Below, one piece after another: positions 41,587 to 52,730 of a stretch of 64,000 bases of DNA (positions are counted from its first letter, which is position 1; each line of letters starts with the position of its first letter). The notes beneath the pieces are model-generated. The model was not told the origin of the DNA and did not search any database. It saw only the letters and a program-made list of their open reading frames with translations. The position numbers and the translations under genes were made by a program. The stretch comes from Planctomycetota bacterium (GTDB taxonomy: Bacteria; Planctomycetota; Phycisphaerae; Phycisphaerales; Phycisphaeraceae), in contig JAIOPN010000031.1 of NCBI GenBank assembly GCA_021413865.1, forward strand, positions 1-64,000, written 5' to 3'.

Positions 41587-44259
41587 TCACGCCCAGTGTT
41601 TTTTGAGCATCCACGTCTTCACGCCCTGGGTCAGAACCACGTAGCACAGGAGGGTGAGGATCAGCAGCGGCCAATAGGTGAGCGGGAGCTTTGAGAAGCC
41701 CAGGTAGTGGCCCAGGTGCGTGGCGGGGATGAGGATGCCGATCGCCATGATGACCGCGGACATTACGACGAGCGGCCAGGACGGTCGGCTCTGCAAGAAC
41801 GGGACCTTGTTGGTGCGGATAACGTGGATGATGAGCGTCTGCGTGAGCAGGCTCTCGACGAACCAGCCGGCCTGGAAGAGGCTCGCGCTGGCAGCCGCCT
41901 TCTCGGGTGTCGAGACATCCCAGCAGCCAAACAGGTAGAGCATCATGAAGTAGGTCGTGTAGTCGAAGACCGACGAGCAGGGCCCGATGAAGAGGATGAA
42001 TCTGGTGAGCTGTTTCATGTCCCAGGGGCGAGGCTTTTCGACCTGCTCGGGGTCCACCTCGTCGGTGGGGATGGCCGTCTGGCTGACGTCATACAGGAGG
42101 TTGTTGGCCAGGATCTGGATCGGGGCCATGGGCAGGAAAGGCACGAACACGCTGGCGCCCAACACGCTGAACATATTGCCGAAGTTGCTCGACGCGCCCA
42201 TGCGGATGTACTTGAGGATGTTGCAGAAGACCTTGCGGCCCTCGATCACGCCCTCTTCGAGCACGAGGAGGGATTTTTCCAGAAGGATCATGTCGGCGGA
42301 TTCTTTGGCGATGTCCACGGCGGTGTCCACGCTGATGCCCACATCGGCGGTGCGGAGCGCGGGGGCGTCGTTGATGCCGTCGCCCATGAAGCCGACGGTG
42401 TGGCCTTTGGACTGCAGGGCCTTGATGATCCGCTGCTTGTGGGCGGGGGAGACGCGGGCAAAAAGGGTGGTCTTCTCGGCGGAGGCGGCGAGCTGCTCGT
42501 CGCTCATGTTTTCGACCTCGCCGCCCAGCAGGACGAACTCGGTGGCCAGCCCGACCTCCTTGCAGATCTTGCGGGCGACCAGGTCGTTGTCACCCGTCAC
42601 CACCTTGACGGTGACGCCGTGGCCCCGCAGCGCGGCGATGGCGGCGGTGGTGGACTCCTTGGGCGGGTCGAGGAAGGCGATGTAGCCGTTGAGGACCAGG
42701 TCGCACTCGTCGGCCTTGCCGTAGGGCGTGGCGTCCCCGGCGACGACGCCGCGCGGCTCGGTTTCCTTGCTGGCGATCGCCAGCACACGGAAGCCGTCCG
42801 CGGAGAGCTGCTCGTACTCCTCCTTGAGCTCGTCGATGAGGATGTGCTCCATGGGGTAGAGCCTGCCGTCGAGCTCGAAATCTTTGCAGCGTGCGAAGAC
42901 CGCCTCGGGCGCGCCCTTGCAGATGAGCCGGTCCTTGCCCCCGGGCGTGCGGACGACGACGGACATCACGCGGCGCTGGAAGTCGAAGGGGATCTCGTCC
43001 ACCTTGGCGTAGTCGGGGATGTGGGCGTCGGCGTGCGTCTCCTTGTGCGCCAGCACGGCGCGGTCGAGCACGTTTTTCAGGCCCGTCTGGAAGAAGCTGT
43101 TGAGGTACGCCAGCGCCAGCACTCCGTCGTCCTCGCGCAGGACGACGTCGCAGTGCTTCTCGAGGATTACGCGGTCCATCGTGAGCGTGCCGGTCTTGTC
43201 GGTGCACAGGACGTCCATCGCGCCCAGGTTCTGGATGGCGTTGATGCGCTTGACGATGACCTTCTTGCGCGACATTGCCATCGCCCCCTTGGAGAGGCAG
43301 ACGGTGACGATCATGGGGAGCATCTCGGGCGTGAGGCCCACGGCGACCGCCATGGCGAAGAAGAAGGCGTCACCCCAGTTGCCCTTGGTCACGCCGTTGA
43401 TGATGAACACCAGCGGCACCATCACGAGCATGAAGCGGAGCATCAGCCAGGTGAAGCTGGAGACGCCGCGGTCGAAGGCGGTCTGCGTCGGCTGCTCGGT
43501 GATCGATTGCGCCATGCCGCCCAGGTAGGTCTGCGTGCCCGTGGCCAGCACGACGGCGACGGCCGAACCGCTCTCGACGCTGGTGCCCAGGAAGGCGATG
43601 CTGGTCAGCTCGATGGGCGCGGCGGCGGGCGCGGCGTGTTCGACCTCGAACTTCTCGACCGGGAAGCTCTCGCCCGTCAGCGAGCCCTGGATGACGAACA
43701 GGTCCTTGGCGGAGACGATGCGCACGTCGCCGGGGATCATGTCGCCGGCGGCGAGCTTCACCACATCCCCGGGCACAAGCTGTGAGACGGGGGTTTCCAC
43801 CGCCGCGCCGTCGCGCAGGACCGTGGCGGTCACGGAGATCATGGCCTTAAGCTTGGCGGCGGCGCTGTCGGCCTTGGCCTCCTGGATGAGCTTGAGCGAG
43901 ACGCCCAGCACGATCATCAGCGACATCACGATCCCGGCGCGCACGTCTTCGGTGAGGAATGAGATCGTCGCCAGCACCGCCAGCAGCAGCACGAGCGGGT
44001 TGAGCACGGCGTGCCAGAGCAGCTTGCCGACGCCCGTGCGGTGGTCTTTAGCCAGCACGTTGGGCCCGTGCTTGAGCAGCCGCGCGGCGGCCTCGTCGCC
44101 GGTGAGCCCCTCGGGCCGCGTTTCGAGGCGTTCGTACACGGCCTGGGGGGTGAGCGTTGCCGATTCGACGACGACCGCCGAGACACGGATGGCCGGCTTC
44201 TCGCGCCGGATCGCGGCGAAGAGGTTCTTGGGCAGGATGGTGGATGGGATCAAGGACAT
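41587..44259 (-). CDS. mgtA: Magnesium-translocating P-type ATPase, MgtA/MgtB type
   Basis: An 890-residue P-type ATPase of the type III (Mg import) class. The start could also be 44289. The phosphorylation motif CTDKTGTLTMDRVILEKHCD is near residue 350, with TGES earlier, KGAPE, and GDGIND (hinge) later. About ten membrane segments are visible, with the last six at the C-terminus. These pumps bring Mg2+ inward and are usually induced by Mg2+ shortage. A terminator-like hairpin stands 7 bp from the alternative start at 44289. Confidence 0.85.
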   Translation of the reverse strand: MSLIPSTILPKNLFAAIRREKPAIRVSAVVVESATLTPQAVYERLETRPEGLTGDEAAARLLKHGPNVLAKDHRTGVGKLLWHAVLNPLVLLLAVLATISFLTEDVRAGIVMSLMIVLGVSLKLIQEAKADSAAAKLKAMISVTATVLRDGAAVETPVSQLVPGDVVKLAAGDMIPGDVRIVSAKDLFVIQGSLTGESFPVEKFEVEHAAPAAAPIELTSIAFLGTSVESGSAVAVVLATGTQTYLGGMAQSITEQPTQTAFDRGVSSFTWLMLRFMLVMVPLVFIINGVTKGNWGDAFFFAMAVAVGLTPEMLPMIVTVCLSKGAMAMSRKKVIVKRINAIQNLGAMDVLCTDKTGTLTMDRVILEKHCDVVLREDDGVLALAYLNSFFQTGLKNVLDRAVLAHKETHADAHIPDYAKVDEIPFDFQRRVMSVVVRTPGGKDRLICKGAPEAVFARCKDFELDGRLYPMEHILIDELKEEYEQLSADGFRVLAIASKETEPRGVVAGDATPYGKADECDLVLNGYIAFLDPPKESTTAAIAALRGHGVTVKVVTGDNDLVARKICKEVGLATEFVLLGGEVENMSDEQLAASAEKTTLFARVSPAHKQRIIKALQSKGHTVGFMGDGINDAPALRTADVGISVDTAVDIAKESADMILLEKSLLVLEEGVIEGRKVFCNILKYIRMGASSNFGNMFSVLGASVFVPFLPMAPIQILANNLLYDVSQTAIPTDEVDPEQVEKPRPWDMKQLTRFILFIGPCSSVFDYTTYFMMLYLFGCWDVSTPEKAAASASLFQAGWFVESLLTQTLIIHVIRTNKVPFLQSRPSWPLVVMSAVIMAIGILIPATHLGHYLGFSKLPLTYWPLLILTLLCYVVLTQGVKTWMLKKHWA

Positions 44260-44295
44260 AAACGCACCCGACCCCGGCATCGCGATCACAGGCGG

Positions 44296-44392: not shown

Positions 44393-47300
44393 CTAGAGGA
44401 TGCGGATGGTCAGGTCGCCCACGGGGATGAGGGTGGCGTACTCGTCGGGGGTGTCGAGCTTCAGGGTGGCGTTGGCGTCCTTGTAGCTGACCGACTTGAT
44501 GGTCTGGGCGGCGACGCCGTACGGGTCCCCGCCGTTGTCGAGGTTGGGGAGCAGCAGCGTGACCGGCCCGATGTTGGCGGCGGCGATGATGCTGTTGACC
44601 AGGTCGAACGTGAGGCCCGTGACGCCGGCGATCTTGAACGAGGCGATGCCCGCCTGCTGCGCGAGCTGGCCTGCGCTGCTGGGCAGCTCTTCCACGTTCG
44701 GATCGACGCCGGCGAAGAAGGTCGAGTCGATCGCGGCGCCGACCGTGACCGCGCCGACGTTGCCGTCGGAGCGCAGGTCCAGGCCATCGACGACACCCTT
44801 GACGGTCATCTTGCCCAGGGCGGTGAGCTTGGGGTTGTTGGCGTCGGGGACGAGGGTGAGGTGGAAGGCCGAGTCGGTGAGGTTGCCGTTAACGGTGAGG
44901 GCCTTGAGCACCCGCGCGGCGAAGGTGGCGTCGGAGGCGTTGCCCTTGATGGTGAGGCCGGCCGCGTCGCCGGTGATGTCCCAGTTGCTGTCATTCAGCG
45001 AGCCGGTGACGGAGACCGCCCCGATGCTGTTGGCGGAGGTCAGGCCGAGCCCGTCCACGAGGCCCTTGACGGCCATCTTGCCCAGGGCGGTGAGCTTGGG
45101 GTTGTTGGCGTCGGGGGCTTGCGTGAGGTCGAGGGTGGAGTCGGTGAGATTGCCGGTGACGGAGAGGGCCTTGAGCATCCGCGCGGTGAAGGTGGTGGAG
45201 GCGTCGCCCTTGATGGTGAGGCCTGTAACGTCGCCGGAGAATATCGCGGACCAGTCCTGGGTCGAGCCCGCGGTGATCGCGCCGCCGTCGCCGGTGACGC
45301 TCCATGTGCTGTCACGCAGCGCGCCGGTAACGGCGATGGTCCCGATGCTGTTGTCGGAGGTCAGGTCAACGCCATCCACGAAACCTTTGACGGCCATCTT
45401 GCCCAGGGCGGTGAGCTTGGGGTTGTTGATGTCGGGCGACTGGGTGAGGTGGAGTGTGGAGCCGGTGAGGTTGCCGGTGACGGAGAGGGCCTTAACCATC
45501 CGCGCGGTGAATGAATCGGAGGAGGCGTTGCCCTTGACGGTGATGCCCTTGATGTCGCCGGGGGTGTTCACGTCGGCATCGAAGTTGCCCTTGAAGGTGA
45601 GCGTGCCCAGCGAGGGTGCGGTGATGAGGGAATCGCCGCCGTTCTTGATCCACTGGGCGGCGGCGATGCTCTTGATGGCGACGCCGGAGGTGAGGGAGCT
45701 CCCGACGGCCCCGGTCACACCCGCGAGGCTCAGCGCCAGGGCGACGGCGGGGTCGGCCGATGCACCGATGGTGAGCGCGGCATTTTGCAGCGAGCCGAGC
45801 GTGATGGTCTTGACGCCGCCGGTCGCCGTGAGGTCGCCCAGCAGGTTGACCATCTTGCCGGTGATGCTCTTGAAGTCGCCGTCGGCGGTGATGTTGGTCA
45901 GGTCGATCTGGCCGTTGCCGCCCTTGCCGGTGAAGGTCAGGGTGCCGGCGATCGTCGCGCCGGTGATGTCGATGGCGACGGCCTGGATGTTCGTGCCGGT
46001 GAGGGTGGTCCCCTTGGAGGTGGTGACGACCTGGAGGTCGTCGCCGGAGAAGGAAACCTGCGCGGTGGACTTGGCGACCTTGATGACGACCGCGGTGTTG
46101 TCGGCGTCGGTGTAGGAGACCTGCTTGGCGCCGCCCACGCCGATCGTCACGCTGAGCGTCTGCACGTTGAGCGAGACGGCTGCGTCGTTGGAGGCATCGC
46201 CGGAGTTGTCGGAGAAGTGGTAGGTGAAGGAGTCCGCGCCCAGGTAGTTGTGGTCGGGGGTGTAGAGGATGGCGTGGGTGGTGGGGTTGATGGACACGGT
46301 GCCATGGTCGGGCTGATCGACGATGACGATGCTCGCGGCGTCAACCGTGCCGTCGGGATCGGTGTCGTTGGCCAGGACGGCGACGGAGACGGCGGAGTTG
46401 ACGAAGGCGGTGGCGCTGTCGTTGCTGGCGGTGGGGGGGGCGTTGACGTGGACGTTCACCGTGGTGGCCGCGGAGACATGGCTATTGGAGTCCGTCACGG
46501 TGTAGGTGAAGGAGTCGTCGCCTGAGAACCCGCTGGTGGGGGTGTAGGTGATGGCGCCGGTATCGGGGTCGATGCCCAGCGCGCCGTGCTGCGGGCCGGT
46601 GCCCGCGGCGACGGTGGTGGCGTCGATCGTCCCGCCGGAGGCGGTGTCGTTGGCCAGGACGTTGAGTGTGACGGGGGTGTTGAAACGCGTGGCGGCCGAG
46701 TCCGCACCGGTGACGACGCCCGCGACGCTCACGTCGAACGTGTCCTCGACGAAGGCGCCGGTGGAGTCGGTCATGCGCACGGTGAGGGTGGATTGCCCGA
46801 CCGCGTTGGGGGCGTAGGTGAGTTGGAGCTGGTTGTTGACGATCGCCGGGGTGACGAGGGCTGGATTGCTGTTGGCGCGCACGGTGAAGGTCAGGCCGGT
46901 GGCGACCTGGATTTTGTTGTAGAGGATCAGGTTAGCCAGCCCGACGTTAACACCGTTGGTGTAATCGGCCTGGGAGTAGTTAGCCAAGGGGGTCTGCCCA
47001 AAGGCGCTGCCAAAGTCATAGATCGGCAGCGCCGCGATGGCGTCGATGACGGAGTTGTTGCCGAAGACGGTGGCGCCGAAGACGGCATAGGGGTTGGTGG
47101 CGTTGAAGAAACCAGAATTGTCCGCGTTATTGAAGAAGAAGGCGGTATCGGCGGTATCCGGGTCAGCGTTGTCACGCGCCATCGCGAGTGTGCCGCGCGT
47201 GTTGGGCAGGTTGAACTCCATCGCGATGGCGTTGCCGGTGAGCGCGTCGCCAATGGCGAAGTCCACGCCATTGCTGGAGCTGATCGGGTAAGTGCCGGCC

Positions 47301-49090
47301 TGGACGATCTTGAAGGAATTGTTCTGGTCCACGTGCTGGATGATGTTCGACGTGTACGCGTTGGTTGTAACGTAGTGAAGAAAATTGGCGACTGTCAGCG
47401 GCGCCCTGTCGTCGTAAAGCTGAACGAAGAAGCTGCCCAGGGTGGAGTCGAAGCGCACAACCGTGCCGCCGGAGTTGAGGTTGGTGAGCGTCGGGGAGGC
47501 GCCGCGCAGGACCGACACGTCCGCCAGCGGGCTGGTGATGCTCCCGGCCAGGATGGTCGCCAATGTCTGGATATTCAGCGAGACGGTGGCGTCGTTGGAG
47601 GCCTCCCCGTCGTTGTCCGAGACGTGGTAACTGAAACTGTCCGCGCCGACGTAGCCCTGGTTGGGGGTGTAGAGGATGACGCCGGTGACCGGGTCGGCGA
47701 CGGCGGTGCCGTGGTCGGGCTGATCCACAATGACGACGGTGGTGGGATCGAGTTCGCCGTCGGGGTCGGTGTCGTTGGCCAGGATGCGGACGAAGAAAGG
47801 GCTGTCGGCGACGGGGGCGGCGGTGTCGTTGGTGGCGACCGGCGCGCGATTGATGTGGATGCTCACGGCCGTGGAGGAGGAGGTGATGCCGTTGGTGCTG
47901 GCAACGGTGTAGGCAAACGAGTCGCTGCCGACAAAATCATTGTCGGGGGTGTAGGTGATGTCGCCGGTCGCGCCGTCGATCTGGGTGGTGCCGTGCTGGG
48001 GGCTGACGGCGATGGCTACCGAGGCCGGGATCAGTGTGCCGTCGGTGGTCGTGTCGTTGTCGAGGATTGGGATAACCACCGGCGTGTTGAGCCGGACCGT
48101 CGCGGAATCGGGCTGTGCATCGACGCCGGTGACATGGACGCTGAAGGTGTCCTCGACGAAAGCGCCGGTGGAGTCGGCCATGCGGACGGTGATGTTGGCC
48201 AGGCCCACGACGCCGGAGGCGTAGGTCAGGTGGAGTTGCTTGTTGTTGTCGATCGAGGGCGTGACCAGTGCAGGGTTGCTGTTGGCCGTGACCGTGAAGG
48301 TCACGCCGGAGGCGACCTGGATGTTGTTCACCAGGACGAGGTGGGAGTAGGAGAGGCTGTCGTTGCTGTAGTTGTCCTGGGTCCAGTCGGAGAGCGGCAC
48401 GGTGGAGAACGCACTGCCGCTGTTTCCGCCCGAGTAATCAAAGACGGGCAGGGCGGCGATGGCGTCCACCACGGTGTTGTTGCCGAAGACGGTGGCGCCG
48501 AAGACGGCGTAGGGGTTGCCGGCGTTGAAGACGGCGGTGTTGTCGGCGTTGTTGAAGAAGAAGCCGCTGGTGGCGCTGTCCTGGACGCTGGTGCGCGCCA
48601 TGGCGAGCGTGCCGCGCGTGTTGGGGAGGCCGAACTCCAGAGCGATCGGCGGAGACGTGACGACGTCGTTGGCGACGAAGTCGACGTTGTTGGTGGTGGT
48701 GATGAAGAACCCGCCGCCCTGGATGATCTTGTACGAACTGTTCTGATCGCTGCGGTGGATCAGGTCCGCGGCGTAGCTGTTGCTGTTGACGTAGCTCAGG
48801 AAGTTCGCGACCGAGATGGGCGCGGCGGCGTCGTAGAGCTGGACGAAGAAGTTGCCCTGCGTGGTGTTGAAGCGGACGAGGGTGCCGGCGGGGTTGAGGT
48901 CAACGACGGTCGGGGCCGCGTCGTGGTTCACCGACACGTCGGAGATCGCGCTGGTGATGTTGGCCGAGAGGAACGCCCGGTCTTCCAGCGGCTCGAGCAT
49001 CAGGGCGGCGCGGCCGGCGGCGACCGTTTTTTTCTTCTTCGACGATTGAAGTTGGCGCCACAACTGGGGCGGGGCGGATCGTTTGGCCAT
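44393..49090 (-). CDS. Giant surface protein: two cyclophilin-like domains, cadherin-like repeats, C-terminal repeats
   Basis: A 1565-residue protein. The start at 49090 has AAGG upstream. Residues 32-38 are LEPLEDR, an N-terminal motif typical of large exported planctomycete proteins. Domain 1 (about 70-260) is cyclophilin-like (RFNTTQGNFFVQLYDAAAP, NTRGTLAMA, YAVFGATVFGNNTVVDAIAA). Two cadherin-like repeats follow (FVGSDSFAYTV, YVGADSFSYHVSDNDG). A second cyclophilin-like domain (about 535-730) and two more cadherin-like repeats come next. The rest (about 1000-1530) is beta-repeat-rich, with three units around NNPKLTALGKMAVKG. It is probably displayed on the cell surface. It closes at the 44296-44324 terminator. 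Confidence 0.8.
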   Translation of the reverse strand: MAKRSAPPQLWRQLQSSKKKKTVAAGRAALMLEPLEDRAFLSANITSAISDVSVNHDAAPTVVDLNPAGTLVRFNTTQGNFFVQLYDAAAPISVANFLSYVNSNSYAADLIHRSDQNSSYKIIQGGGFFITTTNNVDFVANDVVTSPPIALEFGLPNTRGTLAMARTSVQDSATSGFFFNNADNTAVFNAGNPYAVFGATVFGNNTVVDAIAALPVFDYSGGNSGSAFSTVPLSDWTQDNYSNDSLSYSHLVLVNNIQVASGVTFTVTANSNPALVTPSIDNNKQLHLTYASGVVGLANITVRMADSTGAFVEDTFSVHVTGVDAQPDSATVRLNTPVVIPILDNDTTTDGTLIPASVAIAVSPQHGTTQIDGATGDITYTPDNDFVGSDSFAYTVASTNGITSSSTAVSIHINRAPVATNDTAAPVADSPFFVRILANDTDPDGELDPTTVVIVDQPDHGTAVADPVTGVILYTPNQGYVGADSFSYHVSDNDGEASNDATVSLNIQTLATILAGSITSPLADVSVLRGASPTLTNLNSGGTVVRFDSTLGSFFVQLYDDRAPLTVANFLHYVTTNAYTSNIIQHVDQNNSFKIVQAGTYPISSSNGVDFAIGDALTGNAIAMEFNLPNTRGTLAMARDNADPDTADTAFFFNNADNSGFFNATNPYAVFGATVFGNNSVIDAIAALPIYDFGSAFGQTPLANYSQADYTNGVNVGLANLILYNKIQVATGLTFTVRANSNPALVTPAIVNNQLQLTYAPNAVGQSTLTVRMTDSTGAFVEDTFDVSVAGVVTGADSAATRFNTPVTLNVLANDTASGGTIDATTVAAGTGPQHGALGIDPDTGAITYTPTSGFSGDDSFTYTVTDSNSHVSAATTVNVHVNAPPTASNDSATAFVNSAVSVAVLANDTDPDGTVDAASIVIVDQPDHGTVSINPTTHAILYTPDHNYLGADSFTYHFSDNSGDASNDAAVSLNVQTLSVTIGVGGAKQVSYTDADNTAVVIKVAKSTAQVSFSGDDLQVVTTSKGTTLTGTNIQAVAIDITGATIAGTLTFTGKGGNGQIDLTNITADGDFKSITGKMVNLLGDLTATGGVKTITLGSLQNAALTIGASADPAVALALSLAGVTGAVGSSLTSGVAIKSIAAAQWIKNGGDSLITAPSLGTLTFKGNFDADVNTPGDIKGITVKGNASSDSFTARMVKALSVTGNLTGSTLHLTQSPDINNPKLTALGKMAVKGFVDGVDLTSDNSIGTIAVTGALRDSTWSVTGDGGAITAGSTQDWSAIFSGDVTGLTIKGDASTTFTARMLKALSVTGNLTDSTLDLTQAPDANNPKLTALGKMAVKGLVDGLGLTSANSIGAVSVTGSLNDSNWDITGDAAGLTIKGNASDATFAARVLKALTVNGNLTDSAFHLTLVPDANNPKLTALGKMTVKGVVDGLDLRSDGNVGAVTVGAAIDSTFFAGVDPNVEELPSSAGQLAQQAGIASFKIAGVTGLTFDLVNSIIAAANIGPVTLLLPNLDNGGDPYGVAAQTIKSVSYKDANATLKLDTPDEYATLIPVGDLTIRIL

Positions 49091-49341
49091 GACGGTGATT
49101 ACCTTGATCGGGAGCGAGGGTCCACCGTCCGTCCACACACCCGCCGAGGGGCGCCGTATCGGGGGAGGGGTCACGAGGTTGCGGGCTCAAAACCCGGTTG
49201 TCGCCAAGCCCTTCAACTCTAGCACAGTCCGACGCACGGGCAATCCTTTTTTATGCATATCTTTCGAGGGATAACCCCATTTACGCCCCACGAAGAGGGC
49301 GGGTTCTACCATCGCACGGGCTTCGGATATGCTCCACGGCG

Positions 49342-50016
49342 ATGAGCCACTCGCTTTCACACGGCAAGCCGATCGACGTGGGCCATTTCGGCCTGTTGCA
49401 GGAGGACCTGCCCCCGCCCCCGCCGCCGGGCATGCCCGCGCCACGCCTCGACCTGAACGCGTGGTTCCCGGCTGAACTCCGGGGCCACCCGCTGGAACTG
49501 GAGATCGGCTCGGGCAAGGGCACGTTCCTGGTCGGCCAGGCCGCCGCCACGCCCGGGGTGAACTACATCGGGGTCGAGTGGGCCAGGGCCTTCTGGTCGT
49601 ACGCCGCCGACCGTGCAAGGCGGCACGCGCTGGAGAACGTCCGCCTGCTCCGCGCCGATGCGGCCGTCTTCGTCCGCTGGCACTGCCCGGACGCCCTCTT
49701 CCGGCAGGTGCACATCTATTTCCCCGACCCCTGGCCCAAGGCGCGTCAGCAGAAACGCCGCATCATCCAGGCGGAGTTCCTGCGCGAGCTGCACCGCACG
49801 CTCGCGCCCGGGGGGCAGATACGCATCGCCACCGACCACGCGGATTACTTCCAGTGGATGCTCGACCACGCGGCGCAGGTCTCGGGGATTTTCGAGCGGC
49901 TGCCCTTCGAGAGCCCCGATTCGGCGGGCGAGGGGGAACTGGTCGGCACGAACTTTGAACGCAAGTACCGCCGCGAGGGCCGCCCGTTCCACGCCATGAT
50001 CCTGCGGCGTCTGTGA
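49342..50016 (+). CDS. trmB: tRNA (guanine-N7)-methyltransferase
   Basis: A 224-residue SAM-dependent enzyme that makes m7G46 in tRNA. The start at 49342 gives the family length. The SAM motif is LELEIGSGKGTFLVG (about 51-65). The active-site region is VHIYFPDPWPKARQQKRR (about 120-137) and the end has ELVGTNFERKYRREGRPF, all typical of TrmB. It stands 251 bp from the divergent surface protein gene. Confidence 0.92.
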   Translation: MSHSLSHGKPIDVGHFGLLQEDLPPPPPPGMPAPRLDLNAWFPAELRGHPLELEIGSGKGTFLVGQAAATPGVNYIGVEWARAFWSYAADRARRHALENVRLLRADAAVFVRWHCPDALFRQVHIYFPDPWPKARQQKRRIIQAEFLRELHRTLAPGGQIRIATDHADYFQWMLDHAAQVSGIFERLPFESPDSAGEGELVGTNFERKYRREGRPFHAMILRRL

Positions 50017-50089
50017 CGGGTGGGGCGGTGGGTGTCGTTTGTTGTATCCTTTTTCATTTTTCATTCCGCGTTTCGACAAGGGCATCATC

Positions 50090-50569
50090 ATGTTGCACTC
50101 GAAATATCCGACGCGCCTTGCCTGGGTTTGCATGGCGATGATGGGCCTGGCCGGTTGTGCCTCGACACCCACGGAAGAGGTCCGGCCCCAGGCGCAGGCG
50201 GTCCCGATTTTTCGCGCGGCCGCGGGTGACGAGCCGGGCCTGACGCGGCCCGGGGTCGTGTACCTGAACTCGCGCTCGAAGCTCGGGGACCTTCACGCGC
50301 CGGAGGCGGAGAAGCTCAGCGTCGATTTCGTGAAGGAGGCGATGATCGTCGTCGCGCTGGGCGAGCGGCCGACTGGCGGCTACTGGGTGCGCATCACCGG
50401 CGTGCGCCGGGTGGGGCATGTGCTGATCGCACAGGCGACCTGCAGCCGTCCGGGGCCCGGGTCGGCCGCGGCGCAGGTGGTGACACACCCCTTTGCGGCG
50501 GCGGTGATCCCCGCGCAGAGCGGGCCGGTCGAGGTGAGCCTTGAATCGACCTCGGTCGAGGGGGAATAA
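50090..50569 (+). CDS. PrcB_C-domain lipoprotein
   Basis: A 159-residue lipoprotein with signal peptide and lipobox (GLAGC, Cys about residue 22). The C-terminal half matches the PrcB C-terminal domain: EAMIVVALGERPTGGYWVRI, then PGPGSAAAQVVTHPF. In Treponema the PrcB protein is part of the dentilisin protease complex; its homologues elsewhere are of unknown function. The frame is open from 50039, but the signal peptide starts at 50090. Confidence 0.75.
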   Translation: MLHSKYPTRLAWVCMAMMGLAGCASTPTEEVRPQAQAVPIFRAAAGDEPGLTRPGVVYLNSRSKLGDLHAPEAEKLSVDFVKEAMIVVALGERPTGGYWVRITGVRRVGHVLIAQATCSRPGPGSAAAQVVTHPFAAAVIPAQSGPVEVSLESTSVEGE

Positions 50570-51157
50570 CCGGCGGTCTGGCATCCACATTTACGACGCC
50601 GGCTTCGCCGCTTCGCTGGTGCGTGGGTTTGGGGATTTGGGGGCTTTACCGGGCTTGGATTTGCCGCGAAAAATGGTTGACATAACTCCGGGATGATGTA
50701 GGTTTAGGGAGAGCGGTAGAATTGGGGAGAACGAGATGTCGGTTTGTGGTGCCATCCCATCGCGGACGGGGGTCCGTTGAGCGACGCCAGGAAGGCAGTT
50801 GAAAAACCCTGATCGGGACCGTGTCATGTATTGTCACGGTAAGTGCCTGATTTGATGGGGTTTGCGCTGTTGACTCGGAAGCTCCTGGTATGGAGGTTTT
50901 GACGATTGTGGGGTGGTCACACGGGTTGCATCAACGTGGGTGAAAGAGTGGTCGAAAAGAGATACAGGCGAGGATTCGCCGTGAGTTGGTGCAGGGGGTG
51001 TTGAAAAGCAGGGTTTGGTGGGTCGCTGTCGGTGGAGGAGCCGACACCGGCCCGCCCCCTCTTTTTTCCGGCGTGTGTTCGGGCCCAGGAGCGGTTTGCG
51101 ACGTATCAGGTGCGGGCGTTGCGGGGACGTGACGCCGTTCAAGCGGGACGCGGGGTT
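50570..51157. other. Long upstream region of the exopolysaccharide operon
   Basis: No gene was seen in these 588 bp. The composition is less GC-rich than the flanks. A good -35 match, TTGACA, lies at 50677-50682, with only a poor -10 (TAGGTT, 50699-50704) 16 bp later. The region probably carries the promoter and leader of the operon that begins at 51158. Confidence 0.4.
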
Positions 51158-51817
51158 ATGCCAGAACCGATTACGATTGTGATGGTGGGTGCCGGCGGCG
51201 GGAGCGTCTTGCTCGAGCTCGCGCGCCGCCAGTTCCGCATTTTCAAAGAGCTGCTCGACGTGGTCGGCGGGGTGACGGCGCTGATCGTTTTCACCCCGGT
51301 CATGGCGCTCTGCGCGCTGATGATCAAGATCGCCGACCCGGACGGCCCGGTGATGTACCGCCAGGTCCGCGTGGGGCTCAACGGCCGGCTCTTCACGATC
51401 TACAAGCTCCGCACGATGTACGTGGACGCCGAGAAGCACGGCAAGGCGCAGCGCGCCGGCGAGGACGACCCCCGCGTGATCCCCTGCTGCCGCTGGATGC
51501 GCAAGGGCCACCTCGACGAGCTGCCGCAACTGGTGAACATCCTGCGCGGCGAGATGAGCCTGGTGGGCCCGCGGCCCGAACGTCCGGAATTGTTCGAGGA
51601 CCTGAGCCGTGAGATGCCCGATTTCGAGAAGCGCCTGGCCGTCAAGCCCGGGCTGACCGGCCTGGCGCAGATCAAGAACGGCTACGACACCGACATCGAT
51701 TCGGTCCGGCGCAAGCTCCAGTACGACCTGGAGTACATCGAGAATATGAGCCTGTTGCAGGAGATCAAGCTCCTGTTCGCCACGGTCAGCAAGTTCCGCG
51801 ACCAGGGCGCACGGTAA
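51158..51817 (+). CDS. Bacterial sugar transferase (initiating glycosyl-phosphate transferase)
   Basis: A 219-residue membrane enzyme. The start at 51158 removes 42 doubtful codons. One hydrophobic segment (about 38-60, [20 protein letters not shown]) anchors the conserved domain: [48 protein letters not shown] and [10 protein letters not shown]. These enzymes attach the first sugar phosphate to undecaprenyl phosphate. It heads the exopolysaccharide operon. Confidence 0.88.
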
Positions 51818-51986
51818 CGCCGGTCCGGGCTCTGCCCCGCTGTTATCGGCGATGGTTATCGGTCAGCGGTGGAAACATCGCTGTCCCTGCTTTAGCGGTA
51901 CCCGGACTTCGACCGACGTTATCGAGGTCCGGCCCGGTCGATCCACCGGTTCGGTCCAGGACGGTTTTGACACAAGGGAGTGCATT

Positions 51987-52730
51987 ATGCGGCAGCATCT
52001 GAGGATCGTGTCTTGCGGCGGTTTCTCGTTGGTCGCCCTGCTGGTGGCGGCGCTGGCCTCGGTCGGCTGCGCCCCGCCCAAGTACACCGACTACGACACC
52101 TTCATGAAGAAGCCCCGCCCCATCGTCGGCGGCAAGCCCTACGTCATCGAGCCGCCCGACACCATCCGCATCATCTCCCCCAACGCGCCCGAGATTAACA
52201 ACGTCTCGGTCACCATCCGGCCCGACGGCTACATCACCCTCTATCTCCTGGGCGACCTCTTCGTCGCCGGCAAGACCCCGACCCAGCTCTCCAGCGAGAT
52301 CGAGGAAAAAATCCTCAAGTACTACCAGGACGCGACCATCCAGATCGAGGTCATCGGCTTCAACTCCAAGTTCTACTACCTCGCCGGCGAGATCGACATG
52401 GGCCCCAAGCCCTACACCGGGCGTGAGACCGTCCTCGACGCCGTCCTCAAGGGCGGCGTGGCGCGGTCGTCGTGGCCTGAGCACCTGGTCGTCCTGCGCC
52501 CCAACGAGGAGGAGCAGCTCGTCCGCCGCATGACGATCAACTTCCTAGACATGATCGAAAAGGGCGACCTACGCTACAACGCGGTGGTTGAAGAGGGCGA
52601 CATCCTTTTCATGCCCATCAACCCGCTCGCGGCGATCGGCGTCGCGGTGCAGAACCTGTTGTCGCCGGTTAATCCGCTCATCCAGGCCGCCAGCACGCCC
52701 AAGGCGGCGGGCGCGGCCGCGGGGTTCTAA
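51987..52730 (+). CDS. Polysaccharide export protein (Wza type)
   Basis: A 247-residue outer-membrane lipoprotein. The start at 51987 is preceded by AAGGGAG. The lipobox is SVGC (Cys about residue 28). The poly-export domain is clear: YVIEPPDTIRIISPN, VTIRPDGYITLYLLGDL, AGKTPTQLSSEIEEKI. A SLBB-type region follows (FYYLAGEIDMGP, TVLDAVLKGG) and ends with EEGDILFMP. It would form the export channel for the polysaccharide. Confidence 0.88.
   Translation: MRQHLRIVSCGGFSLVALLVAALASVGCAPPKYTDYDTFMKKPRPIVGGKPYVIEPPDTIRIISPNAPEINNVSVTIRPDGYITLYLLGDLFVAGKTPTQLSSEIEEKILKYYQDATIQIEVIGFNSKFYYLAGEIDMGPKPYTGRETVLDAVLKGGVARSSWPEHLVVLRPNEEEQLVRRMTINFLDMIEKGDLRYNAVVEEGDILFMPINPLAAIGVAVQNLLSPVNPLIQAASTPKAAGAAAGF

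Follow-up and report, generated by a model that had tools for sequence, protein, structure and literature searches.

The locus and its surroundings

The window analysed here is a stretch of 64,000 nucleotides from a planctomycete of the Phycisphaeraceae (contig JAIOPN010000031.1), and the gene under study lies on its reverse strand (Table 1). The reading frame is open from a GTG. The first ATG, at residue 29, coincides with the end coordinate of an earlier sequence-only reading of this DNA and is the likely start, since a paralogue on contig C19 of the same genome opens with a similar MAKK... N-terminus. The neighbouring genes point to no specific partner. The PF02390 methyltransferase among them is presumably of the TrmB kind, and the sugar transferase and polysaccharide export genes may mark the beginning of a polysaccharide cluster.

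Table 1. Coordinates of the gene, its parts and its neighbours in the window
Feature	Position	Strand	Basis or remark
Open reading frame	44393-49174	-	1593 aa counted from GTG
Whole gene from likely ATG (aa 29 of the 1593-aa frame)	44393..49090	-	1565-aa protein
LEPLEDRAFLS, by-eye likeness to planctomycete LEPR-XLL N-terminal motif	48965..48997	-	sequence
Unit 1, split Ig/cadherin-like repeat, N-terminal part	48884..48958	-	profile and model
Unit 1, inserted cyclophilin (Arg55 present, aa 141)	48314..48883	-	PF00160 aa 100-244; PDB match 7zfm_A
Domain 1 Arg55-equivalent codon CGC	48752..48754	-	sequence
Unit 1, split repeat, C-terminal part	48122..48313	-	profile and model
Unit 1, two Big_9/cadherin-like repeats	47564..48121	-	Pfam and self-alignment
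Unit 2, split repeat, N-terminal part	47465..47539	-	profile and model
Unit 2, inserted cyclophilin, Arg55 to His (aa 614)	46904..47464	-	second PF00160 match; PDB match 1j2a
Domain 2 Arg55-equivalent codon CAC (His)	47333..47335	-	sequence
Unit 2, split repeat, C-terminal part	46715..46903	-	profile and model
Unit 2, two Big_9/cadherin-like repeats	46157..46714	-	Pfam and self-alignment
C-terminal 587-aa region, no Pfam match	44396..46156	-	resembles stretches in other large open frames of the genome
Cation-transporting P-type ATPase	41587-44289	-	neighbour
PF02390 methyltransferase	49198-50016	+	neighbour
PrcB_C-domain protein	50039-50569	+	neighbour
Sugar transferase	51032-51817	+	neighbour
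Polysaccharide export protein	51852-52730	+	neighbour

This long multi-repeat protein is probably exported and surface-located, as suggested by its repeats and by the LEPLEDRAFLS motif. By eye the latter is akin to the LEPR-XLL motif, the model of which presumably is the one that appears as LEPR-8K. The LEPR model NF012209 gave no match in the protein in the NCBIfam search (E up to 1), nor is the protein among the two matches of this model in its own genome. Near the N-terminus no stretch stands out as hydrophobic (the best mean over 19 residues is 0.75), which is why we call export no more than probable; borderline hydrophobic stretches occur at residues 1525 (mean 1.60) and 1143 (1.71). For the C-terminal region Pfam gives nothing up to an E-value of 0.01. 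It produces 16 matches in its own genome, itself included, which extend across nine other open frames of 519 to 2571 aa (counted by hand), and judging from this recurrence it may serve several proteins as a common module for sorting or anchoring. Two of the nine frames have a LEPR-8K match.

Cyclophilin domains nested in repeats

The sequence-only reading had seen two cyclophilin-like domains in this protein, and both are well supported. PF00160 matches the whole protein with an E-value of 6.9e-41 in two stretches, and in the genome search these score 79.1 bits (1.1e-21) and 75.6 bits (1.3e-20), far above the curated cut-off of 21.7. Among PDB sequences both match E. coli cyclophilins, domain 1 at 3e-20 and domain 2 at 4.1e-12. 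AlphaFold2 models of both units, computed from an alignment of 33 nested units of this kind, reached a pLDDT of 89.3 for unit 1 and 91.2 for unit 2, with pTM values of 0.85 and 0.87, respectively. The best structural match in the PDB is a cyclophilin in both cases: 7zfm_A for unit 1 (Z 24.0, rmsd 1.8, 160 aligned, model residues 29-223) and 1j2a for unit 2 (Z 23.0, rmsd 1.9, 158 aligned, model residues 30-219). Foldseek likewise returned cyclophilins for both models. Structure prediction had been proposed as a check on the earlier claim, with any other fold counting against it; the two inserted domains are predicted to have cyclophilin folds, and in view of the models and of the PDB and Foldseek matches another fold was rejected for both.

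The same reading described these domains as alternating with cadherin-like repeats. The repeats are certainly there: Pfam finds six Big_9 (PF17963) stretches, overlapped by four Cadherin_5 (PF17892) and four Cadherin_4 stretches, with scores above the curated cut-offs (196.4 bits versus 23.6 for PF17963 and 100.6 bits versus 26.5 for PF17892), and NCBIfam identifies tandem-95 repeats (NF012211). The arrangement is not a simple alternation, however. In the models of both units a short two-strand piece precedes the cyclophilin and a five-strand piece comes after it, and as judged from profiles and models each cyclophilin sits within an Ig/cadherin-like repeat, behind the first two predicted strands of that repeat.

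N-terminal piece, cyclophilin and C-terminal piece are conserved jointly, in identical order, in the C19 paralogue and in units of other genomes. A profile built from 33 nested units, which include the Verrucomicrobiota loci L017 and L018, matched both flanking pieces in 17 further units, bringing the nested form to 50 of the 209 distinct cyclophilin units compared; flank matches within the 33 profile-building units themselves are circular. The nested unit thus recurs in Planctomycetota and in some Verrucomicrobiota.

Uninterrupted copies of the same repeat exist as well. In genome G038 a protein of 1323 aa has a single nested unit, behind which come repeats of this kind without an interruption. 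When the two halves of nested units were rejoined into a profile made from nested units only, three of these G038 repeats and one repeat in G008 scored 44-69 bits. The N-terminal piece raised the score over that of the C-terminal piece alone in all four repeats tested, by 19.1, 13.5, 5.5 and 3.8 bits, and column-permuted controls equalled the real contribution in 0, 0, 1 and 3 of 60 cases, respectively; in the weakest repeat (+3.8 bits) the profile match begins only at position 29. The rejoined profile A4, derived from 12 of the 33 nested units with the cyclophilin cut out, was searched against 51 genomes of the family. Among the 34 matches listed, from 12 genomes, 14 cross the junction uninterrupted (counted by hand), mostly in one genome (11 in G038, two in G048 and one in G008). 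Nested copies in G041 and G045 show up as two pieces with this profile. A match in the window protein (11-104) also spans the junction but lies in unit 2 behind the cyclophilin and was left out of the 14.

The Pfam scores, on the other hand, tell against this. Against Big_9 the rejoined window repeats score 18.7 bits (unit 1) and 18.6 bits (unit 2), below the cut-off of 23.6, under which an uninterrupted homologue also falls (20.9 bits), and for unit 1 the N-terminal piece brings no gain (18.7 bits joined versus 19.4 for the C-terminal piece alone). A search of PDB sequences with the rejoined repeat gave nothing better than E 0.047. Matches to the cyclophilin domain take up the PDB structure lists, and the Ig-like part was consequently matched to no solved structure in them.

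Duplication and active-site residues

Residues 73-545 of the protein align end to end with residues 546-1006 (473 versus 461 aa), which indicates that a 473-aa block comprising the nested unit and two repeats is duplicated inside the protein, as expected from the domain duplication claimed earlier. Identity between the copies is 52% for the N-terminal pieces, about 58-60% for the cyclophilins, 72% for the C-terminal pieces, and 47% and 61% for the two trailing repeats; the two repeats inside unit 1 are 42% identical to one another. In a tree of 33 of the 37 nested units (alignments A2 and A3; four units with long insertions were omitted) the two window units group as sisters (100/100); the end branch of unit 1 measures 0.2 and that of unit 2 measures 0.4. 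The cyclophilin pair has a dN/dS (NG86) of 0.38, a rough value given the high GC3 and one that averages both copies. Constraint has therefore probably acted on one of the copies at least, or on both during part of their history. No second genome of this genus came up in the searches.

The motifs quoted in the sequence-only reading, IHRS and QGGGF in domain 1 and IQHV and QAGTY in domain 2, are exact in the translation, with IHRS at residues 139-142 and IQHV at residues 612-615. Domain 1 retains the equivalents of Arg55, Gln63 and Phe113. In domain 2 the catalytic arginine is indeed replaced by His, while Gln63, Phe113 and the Asn102-equivalent are retained. The further claim that the QGG is lost in this domain is correct for the next Gly, which is Ala, and for the fourth residue of the motif, which is Thr; the catalytic Gln63 itself is kept. 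A sequencing slip can be discounted as the origin of the Arg loss, judging from the assembled sequence alone, because several linked changes are involved (HRS to QHV and GGGF to AGTY). Domain 1 has three extra residues before Gln63 in the Arg-Gln hairpin relative to PpiA and, as aligned, Val and Phe at the positions equivalent to Trp121 and Leu122. Domain 2 has Phe at both positions, as aligned, and E. coli PpiA also has Phe at 121. For residues 60 and 121 of the window domains the assignment hinges on where the gaps are placed and is less certain than for Arg55 and Gln63. Position 121 is without an aromatic residue in 36 of 37 nested units, the exception being the Phe of domain 2, so that a non-aromatic residue is the norm of the family.

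Loss of Arg55 is rare. We compared 209 distinct cyclophilin units, reduced from 322 domain rows and drawn from 162 of 212 records (the window plus 211 loci), and 206 of them have the arginine, which is lost in 3/50 nested versus 0/159 other units. Fisher's exact test gives p = 0.013, and p = 0.0087 (3/37 versus 0/139) in a smaller set of 176 distinct units from 233 domain rows, restricted to those covering model columns 60 to 165 with duplicates removed; both values ignore relatedness and how the loci were chosen. The units concerned are window unit 2 (His), unit 2 of a G036 protein (His), which has lost Gln63 and Phe113 besides, and the first of two adjacent genes at L020 (Gln), a record labelled Phycisphaeraceae that corresponds by its genes to contig C92 of G123. 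The tree requires three separate losses (bootstrap range 3-3), and this rules out a single ancient loss common to window unit 2 and G036 unit 2.

Four proteins have two nested units. The second unit has lost the arginine in two of them, the window protein and that of G036, but the pattern is not general: in G037 the second unit retains Arg while having Gln54 and Ala64, and in G756 both active sites are intact. The Gln54 and Ala64 pair is common to window unit 2 and the second units of G036 and G037, even though the tree pairs the first of these with window unit 1.

Proposed roles of the two copies and related proteins

According to the available text of PMC2911226, Arg55 is the invariant catalytic arginine of cyclophilins; human PPIL4, which has Asn at this position, shows no activity on standard substrates, and inactive isoforms might still be proline-binding domains. 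PPIL4 resembles domain 2 in lacking Arg55, but it and the other inactive cyclophilins in that text are human and are not copies within a protein beside an Arg-bearing one. Loss of this key residue makes it probable that domain 2 serves for binding or as a structural element and is no enzyme, and the most likely assignment from these residues is a pseudo-isomerase for domain 2 and a weak or specialised isomerase for domain 1.

We regard it as fairly probable that the gene encodes an exported repeat protein displaying nested cyclophilins as faces on a platform, the first copy being an isomerase and the second a binding or structural element. Sequence and prediction show the cyclophilin fold, its insertion in an Ig/cadherin-like repeat, homologous nested units and the duplication of the nested unit with its two repeats; the repeat, like the rod that carries a graft, would serve as the platform presenting the cyclophilin face. 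With Arg55, Gln63 and Phe113 in place, copy 1 is most likely a prolyl isomerase, if a modest or specialised one, and would isomerise or bind prolyl peptides. Copy 2, keeping the fold and much of the pocket with His for Arg55, most likely has little or no isomerase activity and acts as a proline-peptide binding or structural module, possible targets being proline-containing segments of its own protein, of neighbouring copies or of other surface proteins.

That domain 2 is instead decaying under relaxed constraint after the duplication, as a folded spacer with neither ligand nor activity, is possible, if on the whole not probable. Its end branch has double the length of the domain 1 branch, and the branch of G036 unit 2, with its additional losses of Gln63 and Phe113, is longer still (1.05 versus 0.37). 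However, domain 2 has kept Gln63, Phe113, the Asn102-equivalent and the predicted fold, and the dN/dS of the pair also speaks against decay, though averaged over both copies. One could also imagine an extracellular planctomycete family with a cyclophilin grafted in an Ig-like repeat where, after duplication within the protein, loss of Arg55 and the changes His54 to Gln and Gly64 to Ala turn one copy into a receptor dedicated to proline peptides, this Gln54/Ala64 pair having been reached at least twice independently; enzyme and pseudo-enzyme would then be paired on one surface fibre. This more far-reaching version is offered tentatively, and we consider it unlikely as a whole.

Domain 1 itself departs from the consensus at 121 (Val), at 122 (Phe) and in the lengthened hairpin, and may therefore not be an active enzyme. 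If so, both cyclophilins could be display or adhesion modules, which we find quite doubtful, as the conservation of Arg55 in 47/50 and of Gln63 in 49/50 nested units indicates selection for catalysis in the family, and the non-aromatic residue at 121 is what nearly all nested units have. Conversely, domain 2 might still be an active isomerase, perhaps of altered specificity, with His55 in the role of Arg and some activity retained. Its Gln63 and Phe113, a Phe at 121 as in E. coli PpiA and an unchanged predicted fold would fit, but the invariance of Arg55 described in PMC2911226 and its presence in 206/209 units make this improbable. It is very improbable that the flanking strands are cyclophilin extensions packed on the domain as in the AquaCyps instead of a split repeat: AquaCyp293 (5ex2_A) does occur in both structural lists with alignments reaching past the cyclophilin core (unit 1, 152 aligned, rmsd 2.2; unit 2, 184 aligned, rmsd 4.3), but uninterrupted copies of the repeat are found elsewhere, three of them following the nested copy of the G038 protein, and there is not one cysteine in the 1593 aa of the window frame for the conserved disulfide that the consulted part of PMC4898713 describes, and on this ground we reject membership of the AquaCyps.

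The AquaCyps are all the same the nearest bacterial precedent we found for a cyclophilin embedded in another structure. As far as PMC4898713 was available, they too are bacterial cyclophilins with added segments at both termini, which pack against each other, and the two described differ in active-site residues and activity. They differ from the window units in the NIC domain, for which a novel alpha/beta fold is described that includes a central insertion and a disulfide, whereas the window pieces appear to form a split repeat, and in that AquaCyp293 and AquaCyp300 both keep the arginine that one window copy has lost. PpiA and PpiB (PF00160) share the fold and, with domain 1, Arg55, Gln63 and Phe113; the window cyclophilins instead each interrupt an Ig-like repeat, in a protein of 1565 aa, and domain 2 is without Arg55.

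In FKBPs of the insert-in-flap type, SlyD for example, the prolyl isomerase has an accessory domain inserted in it. They resemble the window protein in nesting an isomerase and a second domain, but in the window protein the isomerase is the insert and the repeat its host. The window repeats match those of tandem-95, Big_9 and Cadherin_5 proteins (NF012211, PF17963 and PF17892), unlike which one repeat per window unit is broken by a cyclophilin. To our knowledge, most cyclophilins either stand alone or are fused at their ends to other domains. A 2026 review (PMC13162259) describes, in its available part, multidomain cyclophilins with TPR or WD40 modules. No cyclophilin nested in an Ig-like repeat appeared among the matches listed in a literature search of titles and abstract openings, partly aimed at known cyclophilins and covering few subscription journals. 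The cyclophilins and the repeats are themselves known families.

Nested cyclophilins with repeated Arg loss in duplicated copies would represent natural enzyme/pseudo-enzyme pairs in one chain. Such pairs could show directly which roles other than catalysis the pocket of a cyclophilin has, and might give a clue to ATP-free folding or to binding outside the cell in planctomycetes.

Several variations on the nested form were encountered among the loci. The nested cyclophilins of L155, L113 and L156 (G063, G034 and G033) have a further mid-domain insertion of roughly 80-160 aa. Nested cyclophilin genes also occur as adjacent pairs, at L146, L147, L148, L149, L020, L201, L202 and L203 in the genomes G261, G167, G299, G135, G123, G779, G784 and G698. 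The genome of the window contains in addition stand-alone cyclophilin matches, one of them with one in-frame TGA (L010, G000:C41:62287-62760).
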